Of a stretch of 64,000 nucleotides of DNA, positions 6,211 through 39,925 are shown piece after piece (the first letter of the stretch is position 1; each line of letters begins with the position of its first letter). The DNA lies in the NCBI GenBank assembly GCA_029866005.1, contig JARXAE010000002.1, positions 62,001 to 126,000 on the forward strand, given 5' to 3'. The translations under genes were made by a program, and so were the position numbers. Under the pieces are notes generated by a model. It saw only the letters and a list, made by a program, of their open reading frames with translations. It ran no database searches and was not told where the DNA came from. Origin of the DNA: Fimbriimonas sp. GTDB lineage: Bacteria > Armatimonadota > Fimbriimonadia > Fimbriimonadales > Fimbriimonadaceae.

Positions 6211-6975
6211 TTAGACGGCCATGACGTTATATCCGCTGTCGACGAAGATGATCTGGGCGCTGACGCCTTTGCTGAGGTCGCTGATCAGATAGAGAGCGGC
6301 TCCAGCGGCTTCTTGTTGACCATATTCGCGCTTGAGGGGAGCGGTGCCTTGAACGGACTTGATGAAGTCTCCCAACCCGCTGACGCCTCGACCTGAAATG
6401 GTGTTGACCGGACCAGGGGAGACGGTGTTGACCCGGATTCCTCGGTCGCCGAGTTCGGTTGCGAGGTAGCGGACGCTACTCTCAAGGGCGGCTTTGCAGA
6501 GGCCCATGACCTTATAGTTGTTCATCACGCGGGTGCTACCGATGTAGCTGAGGGTGACGATGCTGCTGTCTTCCTTCATCAGCGGTTCAAGGGTTTGGCA
6601 AGTCTTCACCATCGAGTAGACGCTGGCGTTCATTGCGGTGTTGAAGTCTTCGAGACTGGTGTCGAGGAAACGACCCGTGAGAGCTTCTTTCGGCGCGAAG
6701 CCGACGCTATGAACCAGAAAGTCGAGCTGGCCGAGTTTGACTTTGACTTGTTCTTGCAGAGCTTCGTATTGCTCAGCGAACATGAAGTCGACGGTGACAG
6801 TCTCGAATCGCTCACGGCCTTCGAGGAGCTTGTTTACGCCTTCGAGGAGTCGATCGTTCTGCGCACCCACTCCGACGATTGCGCCCTCTTGGTTCGCTCG
6901 GTCGGCGATTGCCCAGCCGATGGAGTTTTTGTTTGTGACGTTGAGGACGAGACCGGTTTTGCCTTCGAGAAGCAT
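6211..6975 (-). CDS. fabI: Enoyl-[acyl-carrier-protein] reductase FabI
   Basis: NADH-dependent last step of fatty acid elongation. The 254 residues are the normal length. The FabI-type active site is complete: LSYIGSTRVMNNYKVMGLCK supplies Tyr144, catalytic Tyr154 and Lys161 (Y-x6-K). The N-terminus carries the SDR nucleotide motif in its FabI form (NKNSIGWAIA), and SVGFAPKEAL is the substrate loop region. A CATAAT -10 box sits seven bases before the ATG, so the mRNA is probably leaderless. The gene stands alone, with hairpin repeats at its 3' end. Confidence 0.95.
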   Translation of the reverse strand: MLLEGKTGLVLNVTNKNSIGWAIADRANQEGAIVGVGAQNDRLLEGVNKLLEGRERFETVTVDFMFAEQYEALQEQVKVKLGQLDFLVHSVGFAPKEALTGRFLDTSLEDFNTAMNASVYSMVKTCQTLEPLMKEDSSIVTLSYIGSTRVMNNYKVMGLCKAALESSVRYLATELGDRGIRVNTVSPGPVNTISGRGVSGLGDFIKSVQGTAPLKREYGQQEAAGAALYLISDLSKGVSAQIIFVDSGYNVMAV

Positions 6976-6988: not shown

Positions 6989-7069
6989 ACTGGTTTTCGA
7001 CGCCGCCAAATCATTCACCGACAGGTCAGATTTGCAGGAACCAAAAATGTTAAGGAAACAACAAAATGG

Positions 7070-7088
7070 AAATTGTAGTACACAATTT
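7070..7088. repeat. Inverted repeat upstream of the heptanucleotide array
   Basis: AAATTGT, five bases, then ACAATTT: perfect 7-base arms in an AT-rich intergenic stretch 41 bases before the tandem array. It could be a repressor site for the secreted-protein gene at 7189. This is inference only. Confidence 0.4.
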
Positions 7089-7128
7089 GTGGAATTGGTG
7101 ATATGGTTGGACTAAGGCTTCTTAATCG

Positions 7129-7205
7129 AAAGATCAAAGATGAAAGATGAAAGATGAAAGATGAAAGATCAAAGATGAAAGATCAAAGATGAAAGATGAA
7201 AGATC
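7129..7205 (+). repeat. Heptanucleotide tandem array, 11 units
   Basis: Eleven uninterrupted 7-base units of AAAGATG (seven) or AAAGATC (four) lie head to tail. The order is C,G,G,G,G,C,G,C,G,G,C by last base. Every G unit carries an ATG, and the start codon of the next gene (7189) is one of them. Because 7 is not a multiple of 3, successive ATGs fall in different frames. Confidence 0.95.
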
Positions 7206-8286
7206 GCTAAACGCGAATAGAACACACTCGAGGGGAGCGGCAACGCTTGCAACTTGCATCGTCGTTGCAACTTCGATTGCCACTCTTGGTTGGATCGGGA
7301 TGCACAAGCCGTCGCTCGGCGCAGCCAAAGTAGCTGAGTGTGTTGAATGCTCACTCCAGTCAGCACCTCCGACCGCGAAGGAGTTTCTCTCGTTGCCACA
7401 GGGGGCAAACGCACAAATTTCACGTGGCACATTACCGCCAGGTGGAACTTGGCAGGCAAAGCTCGGCAAAATTGATGCCAATGGTCAATATACTGCACCA
7501 CAATTCTACTACCCGGCAGGCTATGACACGGTCGAGTACTGGGCAACGAACGGTACAGTCTATTCCACCGACATTTTGGTGAAGAGAGACCCTACGAAGC
7601 CCTACCACGGTGGCAACGCACTCTTCAAAACTGAAGCGGACGAAATGGTTGACGTTCCTGACGACGGTGAATGGCATGAAGTTGTGGAGCCTGGCACAAC
7701 AGATGAGTTACCAACCCCGCTAGAATGTGTGCCGATTGTAGCCGTAAATGTTACTACTGATACTGAAGCTCAGCAGTCAGTTGTACAGTTGCAAACTGAT
7801 CAAGCAACTTCTGCTACGCAGCAAATGTTTGCACAAGCAACGCCGCTACAAGTTGTTGGTGCTCAAAAGTGCAAGAACATTGGGCCGATTTATCCTAGAC
7901 CGACAGGTGGTTGCGTACCCGGAACCACGAAAGAAGTGCGGGGGCCACTGAAGACTTTTAGTAAAGCATCAGGGCCTTGGTCGGACAATGCAACGCTGAC
8001 AATGTCAGCAACACTCGCTGCTGAAATCAAGAAGATTTTCAAAATCGATGTATCGATCGGTGGAACTTACACCATACGTAGCAAACCGATTGACTACGTG
8101 CAAAGCCAAACGATTGACAAGTGGGCTTGTGGCGCTGACGGACAGTGGACTTACGTCGGTTCGACCGTATGCAAGAGGTTTGCTACTGGAGTCCAAACCA
8201 TCCCCGATTGGGGTGCTTGGTGGCTCGGATACAACAAGGATGGAAGCCCCAAGCACTGGAGTCCATGGTCCTGTGGGGCGATCTAG
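7189..8286 (+). CDS. Secreted or anchored protein of unknown function, start inside tandem repeat
   Basis: I do not recognise this 365-residue protein. Residues 17-40 form a hydrophobic export segment, followed by a Cys pair (AECVECS). Residues 60-125 read like an Ig-type strand domain (GTLPPGGTW, then IDANGQYTAP), a pattern seen in bacterial surface proteins. A second Cys-containing region around residues 220-365 is Trp- and Cys-rich towards the C-terminus. The ATG at 7189 lies in the third-last unit of the heptanucleotide array, so residues 2-5 are encoded by repeat DNA. There is no normal ribosome site. The next gene is convergent, and a hairpin lies between them. Confidence 0.65.
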   Translation: MKDERSLNANRTHSRGAATLATCIVVATSIATLGWIGMHKPSLGAAKVAECVECSLQSAPPTAKEFLSLPQGANAQISRGTLPPGGTWQAKLGKIDANGQYTAPQFYYPAGYDTVEYWATNGTVYSTDILVKRDPTKPYHGGNALFKTEADEMVDVPDDGEWHEVVEPGTTDELPTPLECVPIVAVNVTTDTEAQQSVVQLQTDQATSATQQMFAQATPLQVVGAQKCKNIGPIYPRPTGGCVPGTTKEVRGPLKTFSKASGPWSDNATLTMSATLAAEIKKIFKIDVSIGGTYTIRSKPIDYVQSQTIDKWACGADGQWTYVGSTVCKRFATGVQTIPDWGAWWLGYNKDGSPKHWSPWSCGAI

Positions 8287-8313
8287 CTCGACTCGTAGAT
8301 AAGTGGCTTCTTC

Positions 8314-8352
8314 GGCTTACCGTAGCTCCCATCCGGGGGCTAGTGGTAAGCC
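8314..8352. repeat. Strong hairpin across the 3' end of the MocA-type gene
   Basis: GGCTTACC pairs with GGTAAGCC, and inside it TAGCTCCC pairs with GGGGGCTA through one G-U, around an ATCC loop. It overlaps the last codons and stop (8340-8342) of the minus-strand oxidoreductase and follows the convergent plus-strand gene. No T-run follows on either side, so it is not a classic terminator. Confidence 0.55.
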
Positions 8353-9350
8353 GCATTTGCAATCGGCACCCGTTCGCCGCGTTTGGTGCTTTCGATTGCG
8401 CTTAAGACCATTGCGAGGGATTTGATGTTGTCGTGGCATTCGCCTTTGGGAGTTCCGCCTGTTTCGAGGGCCCAGAGGAATTCGCGAAGGGAGCCGGCGA
8501 TGCCGCCGGGTTCTTCGACCAGTTCGGCCGTGAGATGGCGGACGGGACGGTGAAAGCCTTCGTGGCCTTCGATTAGTTCAGATTCGATGGCACTGTGTCC
8601 GTCCCATTTAGCCGTTCCGTTCGGACCAACAGCGCGCCATTCGCCTTCCCAACTTGTGTGGAGGCCGTCGGCGCACCAGGAGCCTCGGTAGTTAAACTTT
8701 GCGCCGCCTTCCATTTCGAAGAGGCAGGTTGCCGAGGAGCCGTGTTTGTACCAAGACCAGTTCGGGTTGAACTCCTCGGCGTAGACGCTGACCGGGTCGA
8801 GGCCGGAGATGTGGCGGGCTTGGTCGAAGGTGTGGATCGCCATGTCGAGGATGAGGACGTTTTGCATTTCGTCGCGAAATCCGCCGAAGTGGGCACCGAT
8901 GTAGAAGTCGGCGTTGAGGATTCCGACGCCGCCGAGCTGATCGACGAGGGACTTGAAGGCGGATTGCCGGCCGTCGTAGCGGCGACTTTGGGAAACCATA
9001 TAGAGCTTTCCTGCATCTTCGGAGGCTTTGACCATCCTTCGCGCGCTTTGCATCGAGATGGTCATGGGCTTCTCGCCGAGGACGGGGAGTCCGGCGGCGA
9101 GGGCTTCGAGCGTGACGGCTTCGTGGGCTTCGGGAATGGTGACATCGATCACGAAGTCGGCGCCTTCTTTCAGGGCAACGCTTAGGGTTTCAAAGGTTGG
9201 GACTTGGAGGTTGAGTTCTTCGGCCGAGCGGGCGGCTTGGCCGGGCATGACGTCGACCCAGGCGGCGATTTCGACTCCGCCATGCTCGGTGAGGTTCTTC
9301 GCCCAAGTGCGTCCCATTCCGCCAGCGCCCACCAAAATCGCCCTTCTCAT
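8340..9350 (-). CDS. Gfo/Idh/MocA-family NAD(P)-dependent oxidoreductase
   Basis: A sugar-type dehydrogenase of the Gfo/Idh/MocA family, 336 residues. The N-terminus is the Rossmann motif ILVGAGGMGRTWAKNL, and the family motif GEKPMTIS follows near residue 95. The C-terminal half has the usual mixed-sheet pattern with AIHTFDQARHISG in the active-site helix. I chose the ATG at 9350 because the Rossmann strand begins there; upstream codons would run into the divergent gene's promoter. A TACACT -10 box lies eight bases upstream. The substrate cannot be told from sequence. Confidence 0.88.
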   Translation of the reverse strand: MRRAILVGAGGMGRTWAKNLTEHGGVEIAAWVDVMPGQAARSAEELNLQVPTFETLSVALKEGADFVIDVTIPEAHEAVTLEALAAGLPVLGEKPMTISMQSARRMVKASEDAGKLYMVSQSRRYDGRQSAFKSLVDQLGGVGILNADFYIGAHFGGFRDEMQNVLILDMAIHTFDQARHISGLDPVSVYAEEFNPNWSWYKHGSSATCLFEMEGGAKFNYRGSWCADGLHTSWEGEWRAVGPNGTAKWDGHSAIESELIEGHEGFHRPVRHLTAELVEEPGGIAGSLREFLWALETGGTPKGECHDNIKSLAMVLSAIESTKRGERVPIANAAYH

Positions 9351-9358
9351 CAGTTCAG

Positions 9359-9368
9359 AGTGTAACCT
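9359..9368. promoter_or_regulatory. Overlapping divergent -10 boxes
   Basis: Minus-strand TACACT (9359-9364) and plus-strand TAACCT (9363-9368) share the two bases TA. They lie eight and seven bases from the two divergent start codons (9350 and 9376). One open complex could not serve both genes at once. Confidence 0.45.
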
Positions 9369-9375
9369 AGAGACC

Positions 9376-10398
9376 ATGCTCATCGCCGACCTTAGAAGCG
9401 ACACCGTCACCCGCCCAACCCCCGAGATGTTTGAGGCAATGCAGTCGGCAGCCCTGGGAGATGACGTGTTAGGCGATGATCCGACTGTCATTGAACTAGA
9501 GCAGCTTGCGGCGAAAATGGTCGGGAAAGAAGCGGCAGTCTTTGTTCCCAGCGGGACGATGGGGAACCAGATGGCGATTGCCACGCACACCAAGCCGGGG
9601 GATGCGATCATCGTTGAGGAAGAGGCACATGTGATCTACTATGAGGTCGGTGCTCCTGCAGTTTTCGCGAATGTTCTGACTTGGACACTGCCTTCAGATC
9701 GGGGCGTCATGGATCCTTCGGAGATTCGAAGAAGGATGACAAAACGGAATATCCACACTCCGGGGACGACGCTGATTTGCATTGAGGACACCCACAACCG
9801 GGCGGGCGGAACGGTAATTCCTCTTGATGTTTTGGCTGAGTATCGCAAGGTCGCGAATGAGTTTGGGATCAAGATTCACGTGGATGGAGCGCGAATCTTT
9901 AATGCGGCGGTGGCGCAAGGCGTTCACGTTTCGGAGATTACGAAGCATGTGGATACGGTGAATTTCTGCTTATCGAAGGGGCTTCGGGCTCCGGTAGGGT
10001 CAATTTTGGCGGGGTCCGCGGAGTTTATTGACGCGGCTCGTTTCTGGCGGAAACGGCTGGGCGGTGGCATGCGACAGGCGGGGATTCTGGCCGCTTGTGG
10101 TTTGGTCTCGCTGACCAAGATGGTGGATCGACTGGTTGAAGATCATGCCCGTGCGCGGGTTCTAGCGACAGAGTTGGGCTCGTTGCCGGGGATTTCCTGC
10201 GATCCCGACGCGAATCCAACGAACTTGGTAATGCTGAACACCGAGAAGCCGGCGGCAGAGTGGGCGGTCGCACTCCATGAGAAAGGAGTCTGGTCGATGC
10301 CGGCTGCGTCGCATCGGTTACGCTTGGTGACTCATGCCGACTTCACCGACGAGCATCTGGAGTTCGCCCTCGGCGTGTTTCGGTCGGTAGCGATTTGA
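9376..10398 (+). CDS. ltaE: Low-specificity L-threonine aldolase
   Basis: PLP-dependent cleavage of L-threonine or L-allo-threonine to glycine and acetaldehyde. It has 340 residues, the family length. Evidence: opening motif IADLRSDTVTRPTPEM, then GDDVLGDDP, the GTMGNQMAI phosphate-binding segment, the HVDGARIFNAAVA block with the cofactor Asp, and Lys201 in FCLSKGLRAPVGS as Schiff-base lysine. It is divergent from the MocA-type gene, with overlapping -10 boxes. No ribosome site precedes the ATG. Confidence 0.93.
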   Translation: MLIADLRSDTVTRPTPEMFEAMQSAALGDDVLGDDPTVIELEQLAAKMVGKEAAVFVPSGTMGNQMAIATHTKPGDAIIVEEEAHVIYYEVGAPAVFANVLTWTLPSDRGVMDPSEIRRRMTKRNIHTPGTTLICIEDTHNRAGGTVIPLDVLAEYRKVANEFGIKIHVDGARIFNAAVAQGVHVSEITKHVDTVNFCLSKGLRAPVGSILAGSAEFIDAARFWRKRLGGGMRQAGILAACGLVSLTKMVDRLVEDHARARVLATELGSLPGISCDPDANPTNLVMLNTEKPAAEWAVALHEKGVWSMPAASHRLRLVTHADFTDEHLEFALGVFRSVAI

Positions 10399-39065: not shown

Positions 39066-39925
39066 ACTCCCTCCTCCTGCTTCCGTTCTCGGTCGCGTCT
39101 TCGCTTTCGTGGGGTGGGCTGAGGCTCCTCTTGTTCTACGGTGTTTTTGATCAGGAACTCACGTAATTCGGTGGTGGTCGAGACTTGGCTGATGCGCCCA
39201 TCTTGCGCAACCGAGATGGTTCCCCGCTCCTCGCTAACCACAATCGAAATGACGTCGTTGCTTTCGGTCACACCCACCCCGGCACGGTGTCTCATGTGCA
39301 TCCGCCGGTCAATTCTTTGGTTCTCACTGAGCGGCAAGCGGCAAGCGGCAGCCAACACGTGGTCCCCTCTGACGATCACCGCTCCATCGTGGAGCGGGTT
39401 TTGACCGAAGAAGATCGAACCCAAAATCGACGTCGTGATCTTTGCGTTCAGAGTGACGCCCGTCGCTGCAACTTCGTCAAGGCGACTCCCAGTTTCGATC
39501 ACGATAATCGCCCCCACTTTATCCTTCGCCATCTCGGCCACCGCACCCACGATTTCCTCGACCGAGGCCCGGTCAAGGTTCTGTTCGTGCCCGACGTCTT
39601 TCACCGCGTCGGCCAAGAATCCTAGTCGGGTCAGGCCCTCAAGAGCCTGCCGAAGTTCGGGAAGAAAGAGAATGACCAAAGCAACTGGTCCCAAAAGTGT
39701 TGCCTTCTCAAGGATCCAGTGAAGGGTGGTCAGCCTCAGTGTGTCACTCAGCAACAATGCAACAGTGAAGACGAGTACCCCGAGAAGAATCCGCCAGCCC
39801 CTTGTGCCGCGAACGAGCATCAGAATTCGATAGATCAGGAATGCCACGATGAGAATGTCCACGACCGCGACCGCGAGGTCACGCGTTGTCATCTCTTTTA
39901 GGCTCTGGATTAAGGGGTATTCCAC
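39062..39925 (-). CDS. cdaA: Membrane diadenylate cyclase CdaA
   Basis: Makes cyclic di-AMP from two ATP. 287 residues: three N-terminal membrane helices (about 17-37, 46-60, 74-92), then the DAC domain. Both catalytic motifs are intact, DGA at 180-182 and RHR at 212-214 in HMRHRAGVGVTESND. A basic C-terminal tail of about 20 residues is extra. The start is a GTG at 39925. c-di-AMP controls potassium, osmotic and cell-wall balance in many bacteria. Confidence 0.95.
   Translation of the reverse strand: MEYPLIQSLKEMTTRDLAVAVVDILIVAFLIYRILMLVRGTRGWRILLGVLVFTVALLLSDTLRLTTLHWILEKATLLGPVALVILFLPELRQALEGLTRLGFLADAVKDVGHEQNLDRASVEEIVGAVAEMAKDKVGAIIVIETGSRLDEVAATGVTLNAKITTSILGSIFFGQNPLHDGAVIVRGDHVLAAACRLPLSENQRIDRRMHMRHRAGVGVTESNDVISIVVSEERGTISVAQDGRISQVSTTTELREFLIKNTVEQEEPQPTPRKRRRDRERKQEEGV

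Follow-up and report, generated by a model that had tools for sequence, protein, structure and literature searches.

The Haemophilus influenzae genes hmw1A and hmw2A carry a promoter repeat, (ATCTTTC)n, of 13 to 38 units, an increase in which lowers expression (PMC8262952; PMC2651432). The repeat is located between the promoters P2 and P1, 69-106 bp upstream of the gene, and does not contribute a start codon. At the tetranucleotide ON/OFF loci of Haemophilus, a short repeat whose unit is not a multiple of three covers the 5' end of the gene and is positioned downstream of the initiating codon, such that unit number sets the reading frame (PMC2651432). For the uspA2 gene of Moraxella catarrhalis, as described in PMC4679880, AGAT repeats are found in the 5' untranslated region, directly before the coding sequence, with the start codon outside the repeat, and variable expression has been demonstrated. 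Heptamers of the unit TAACTGA, described in Beggiatoaceae, Cyanobacteria and Bacteroidetes, are intergenic and lie beside start codons, are scattered across phyla, and contain stops in the forward but not in the reverse frames; they number up to 169 sets per genome, mostly of 2-6 copies (PMC4679880).

The array described here is present on a 64,000-nucleotide stretch of Fimbriimonas sp. DNA, the whole of which is referred to as the window. Its unit, GAAAGAT, is the identical 7-base unit of hmw1A and hmw2A in reverse complement, (TGAAAGA)n, the unit numbers are similar, and in both cases the repeat is at the upstream end of a gene for a surface or secreted protein. However, the orientation to the gene is opposite, with GAAAGAT rather than ATCTTTC on the coding strand, and the array contains the start codon instead of lying outside it between two promoters, and is interrupted by C-type units. 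The locus possesses the hmw-type repeat unit, but not the hmw-type layout. As in the tetranucleotide loci, a short repeat with a unit that is not a multiple of three covers the 5' end of a gene, whereas in the window the spacing between the start and the distal end of the repeat is constant and unit number has no effect on frame. As in uspA2, the repeats are located in the leader directly before the coding sequence. The array shares with the TAACTGA heptamers an intergenic position beside a start codon, a unit that carries stops in its forward frames only, and a scattered distribution across phyla, but the TAACTGA unit is different and lacks an ATG, and a single array in the genome does not constitute the TAACTGA-type network of many arrays upstream of starts.

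The array and the start codon

The features of the locus, in window coordinates, are the following.

7128..7204, plus strand: heptanucleotide array of 11 units, (G/C)AAAGAT (TRF and unit reading)
7140..7192, plus strand: chain of mini-ORFs (MKDER-stop or MKDQR-stop) joined by ATGA stop/start overlaps, running 7140 to 7154 to 7189, and 7147 to 7161 to 7175 to 7189
7189..7191, plus strand: start ATG formed where unit 9 meets unit 10, the sole array ATG that opens a long reading frame (sequence reading)
7196..7210, plus strand: last array ATG, a dead end encoding MKDR-stop (sequence reading)
7189..8286, plus strand: gene for a predicted secreted or membrane-anchored protein of 365 aa (ORF, hydropathy and homologues)
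6211..6975, minus strand: divergent neighbour, an enoyl-ACP reductase-like gene (fabI; adh_short_C2), syntenic in the genomes G017 and G012
8340..9380, minus strand: convergent neighbour, a Gfo/Idh/MocA oxidoreductase gene, the mechanical ORF of which extends to 9611
6998..8361, no strand: segment comprising array, gene and flanks, for which the closest relative, G017, has no equivalent

A single array was reported by TRF at 7128-7204 (period 7, 11.0 copies, 91% matches, score 133, consensus GAAAGAT), in agreement with the eleven seven-base units recognized at this site by a previous sequence-only reading, which had placed them at 7129-7205, a rotated version of the same array that is one base off. 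Read from 5' to 3', the first letters of the units are G C G G G G C G C G G, and AAAGAT completes each of them; these near-perfect head-to-tail units, far above chance expectation, make up a long simple sequence repeat (SSR). The frequency of repeats in the genome was estimated from a 399-kb sample of its 2.8 Mb, in which the array was the top-scoring tandem array and no second heptamer array exceeded three copies. A different heptamer, AGCGGCA, is present in three perfect copies at positions 39330-39350 of the window (TRF score 42). When the array pattern was searched, no second occurrence was found in the rest of the genome and none in the 290 other genomes of the phylum, from which a reversed control pattern was likewise absent. 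The array is unique among the 291 genomes of the phylum.

Seven ATG codons are created at unit junctions (7140, 7147, 7154, 7161, 7175, 7189 and 7196), and their frames rotate, as had been recognized earlier, because 7 mod 3 is 1. The companion claim that an ATG is carried by every G-type unit holds for seven of the eight, the first G-type unit being preceded by ATC. The ATG at 7189 is positioned 16 nt inside the distal array end, and translation from the remaining array ATGs would stop after 4-12 codons. The sequence-only reading was correct in stating that the gene starts at an array ATG, that no frame stays open for more than 21 bases in a run of G-type units, and that an ATG must be distal to read into the gene, since ATG 7189 alone gives the 365-aa ORF.

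The array is supported as the source of the gene's start codon, and ATG 7189 as the best-supported start, because it is the only in-frame start found ahead of the hydrophobic segment of the protein and because homologues retain an N-terminal hydrophobic segment. If the one alternative in-frame start, ATG 7300, were used, the protein would lose its hydrophobic anchor. Translation could in truth begin at a non-canonical codon, though none is evident. Two antisense ORFs that cross the array on the minus strand (7134-7481 and 7169-7546) were taken as spurious; such ORFs remain open because ATCTTTC lacks stops.

The gene and its locus

The predicted protein contains a single strong hydrophobic segment, LATCIVVATSIATLGWIGM, with a mean hydropathy of 1.83, at approximately residues 17-38, and a CxxC motif at residues 51-54. 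No match to the protein was found in Pfam, NCBIfam or PDB. Homologues are patchily distributed within the same genus, with identities of 28-39% (a 32-aa remnant excepted), and are also found in other genera of the same family. For instance, the homologues in genomes G004 and G016 have in common the hydrophobic N-terminus, the CxxC pair and a cysteine close to the C-terminus. The gene is probably real, because homologues in several genera keep the cysteines and the C-terminus. Its GC3 is 0.49, versus 0.69-0.75 for the neighbouring genes. The remnant, in genome G008 (G008:C389:4306-4401, L142), is an isolated C-terminal portion of the family, 32 aa at 56% identity within a 50-aa open frame, and is probably a decayed gene.

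In the closest relative, G017, the flanks are 85-90% identical to the window at the DNA level, yet neither the gene nor the array is present at the locus; homology to the window ends at 6997 and restarts at 8362, and fabI and the Gfo/Idh/MocA gene are adjacent, with approximately 280 bp of unrelated sequence between them. In G012, the fabI-side homology ends at the same base as in G017, and the downstream neighbourhood is different from there on; positions 6998-8361 of the window are a variable spot beside fabI. A search by protein for further strains of the species among the genomes compared found none. Judged from these comparisons, the gene and array would represent an accessory insertion, or a loss in the relatives. 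Gene starts in relatives, a comparison that the sequence-only reading had called for, were inspected; the N-terminal hydrophobic segment is retained and the starts are without a repeat array. No heptamer array was found at the homologue starts in G004, G016, G082, G054, G025 and G084, which rules out an array ancestral to the gene family.

Unit number, reading frame and expression

Slippage at the array is plausible, because the identical unit varies in copy number in Pseudoalteromonas and at Haemophilus hmw. It had been proposed from the sequence that such slippage could switch the frame, alter the N-terminus or change promoter spacing, in the manner of a contingency locus. Every contiguous block of 1-8 units was deleted or duplicated in simulation, and a second simulation covered blocks of 1-3 units (60 events), of which 56 kept the 365-aa ORF. 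Duplications of one or two units kept the ORF in every simulated case, as did nine of the eleven one-unit deletions and all ten two-unit deletions, and the slips that fail either remove one of the last two units or are three-unit deletions that leave the same C-G end. The start also stays at -16 in simulated arrays made of G-type units alone, at each length between 3 and 15 units. The gain or loss of units carries the start along because it sits 16 nt inside the distal end, and no upstream start reads through because a run of G-type units closes each of the three frames. Moreover, a G array offers both a start and a stop in every frame, since its unit contains ATGA.

Since the start lies within the array and its spacing to the distal end is constant, the proposed switching of frame was not borne out. 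Changes to the N-terminus would be small, being limited to optional 7-17-residue extensions (MKDERSK, for example) or to MKDQR for MKDER (Glu to Gln), and the contingency-locus layout is mostly unsupported, with frame-shift ON/OFF excluded as the main mode. A classic translational switch, in which slippage would move the gene in and out of frame, might be anticipated from a unit length that is not a multiple of three and from an array that spans the start codon, but is highly improbable given a start that keeps its frame, frames that are closed upstream, and simulated slips that overwhelmingly stay ON. The array is not a translational ON/OFF contingency locus, in which unit number would set the frame, as the start moves with the gene. 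OFF switching is possible only by loss of either of the last two units, or by an equivalent loss of three units, because such a deletion removes the start.

The locus is probably best explained by a lineage-specific heptanucleotide SSR that has expanded over the 5' edge of an accessory gene for a secreted protein, with a frame-buffered start at the unit 9/10 junction and, possibly, graded tuning. The repeat would have expanded across the boundary such that the junction of the ninth and tenth units became the start codon, and, as read directly from the sequence, the usable start stays 16 nt from the distal end whatever the number of units upstream, thereby buffering the coding frame. Replication slippage, which is documented elsewhere for the same GAAAGAT unit, would alter the unit number, and a change in unit number would in turn alter the length of the mRNA leader and the count of competing upstream AUG codons. 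Array slippage would tune expression gradually at most, and the array could equally be near-neutral.

A larger part for unit number is envisaged if the array is an expression-level contingency locus, where promoter spacing or leader length would follow from unit number and give graded, heritable expression, as at hmw1A and hmw2A. This is a possible but doubtful alternative. The array unit and the hmw repeat are reverse complements, and at hmw more units result in less transcript (PMC8262952; PMC2651432), the product is predicted to be membrane-anchored or secreted, a common target of phase variation, and GAAAGAT unit number varies at a Pseudoalteromonas locus. Nevertheless, the array is oriented to its gene in the opposite sense to hmw, where the repeat overlaps promoter boxes upstream and not the start codon, and a sigma-70-like promoter sought in the array flanks was not found. 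In addition, no other such array exists in the genome, and the array is therefore not part of a contingency-locus repertoire.

Overlapping stop and start codons of the form ATGA couple translation (PMC6728339). All five array ATGs upstream of 7189, along with an ATG at 7103, reach 7189 via ATGA overlaps, and the two parities of the chain come together through the C-type units, which would not happen in a pure array. It is conceivable, though unlikely, that the ATGA heptamer array acts as a slippage-proof initiation platform, whereby 5- to 12-codon mini-ORFs would allow reinitiation down to the distal start, with unit number tuning translation and the frame never being lost.

The array could also be a binding or ribosome-landing element, either Shine-Dalgarno-like or a regulator site, as has been proposed for the TAACTGA heptamers of Beggiatoaceae. 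Heptamer arrays directly upstream of start codons have been described (PMC4679880), and GAAAG is purine-rich, but such an element is quite unlikely here. The 3' end of the genome's 16S rRNA, CCTCCTTAAAGG, has no CUUUC partner for GAAAG and cannot pair with it, which rules out a Shine-Dalgarno role for GAAAG, and no SD 4-mer is present in the leader. Likewise, the predicted RNA structure is no different from that of shuffles (z = 0.16), ruling out an RNA-structure role for the array, and with one array per genome there is no network of sites. Few genes of this genome have an SD-like motif at all; such motifs are found before 23% of long ATG ORFs versus 14% in the background, a mild enrichment. 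The 16S gene (G000:C20:349415-350924) ends in GGATCACCTCCTTAAAGG and not in the common CCTCCTTTCT.

GAAAGAT arrays at other gene boundaries

A scan with a four-unit pattern returned at least 115 stretches of GAAAGAT repeats from many phyla. In the case of Pseudoalteromonas, one locus (L227-L233, at approximately position 1700 in each) holds 10, 8, 5, 4, 2 and 2 units across six genomes and is degenerate in a seventh, the matches being 88-95% identical to the query, which was the 8-unit genome. Here, the stop codon of the upstream gene is the first TGA of the array, and that gene is unaffected by unit number. Among the matches listed (L024-L138), intergenic AAAGATG/C arrays between co-directed genes are oriented with GAAAGAT in the coding strand 35 times and in the opposite strand 9 times, a count that was made with a simple ORF caller and may be biased, since the reverse strand has no stops. 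A start inside the array for the HisF gene (L068) was rejected as a mechanical ORF extension, the true start being just past the array; ORF callers extend into such arrays mechanically because an ATG is present in every frame.

The architecture of the window locus is also seen in an unrelated Bacteroidales genome (L257), where the array is situated between a permease-like gene, which stops inside it, and a lipoprotein gene (MKDKSFLYILILTAVFFAAC), which starts at its last usable, distal ATG. The same gene pair is joined by a plain ATGA overlap in several related genomes, and by other short repeats in two. The repeats at this junction differ between genomes (L257, L258, L261 and L265), with GAAAGAT, AATTGAAAATGGAA and GTTGAGA represented, which suggests that repeats have expanded there independently and repeatedly. 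At L257, an ATGA junction has become an array, and heptamers that contain ATGA can therefore expand right at a gene boundary and do no damage.

For a microsatellite at a gene start, a unit that is not a multiple of three is on its own no ground for scoring the gene as phase-variable, as a start codon inside the repeat preserves the frame. If unit number does tune expression at such a locus, the outcome would be a graded switch and not an ON/OFF one. The GAAAGAT unit recurs at gene boundaries in unrelated bacteria, at a start and a stop in Bacteroidales and at a stop in Pseudoalteromonas, and heptamers with an ATGA may be tolerated at such boundaries, and may expand there, because the neighbouring frames are never broken.
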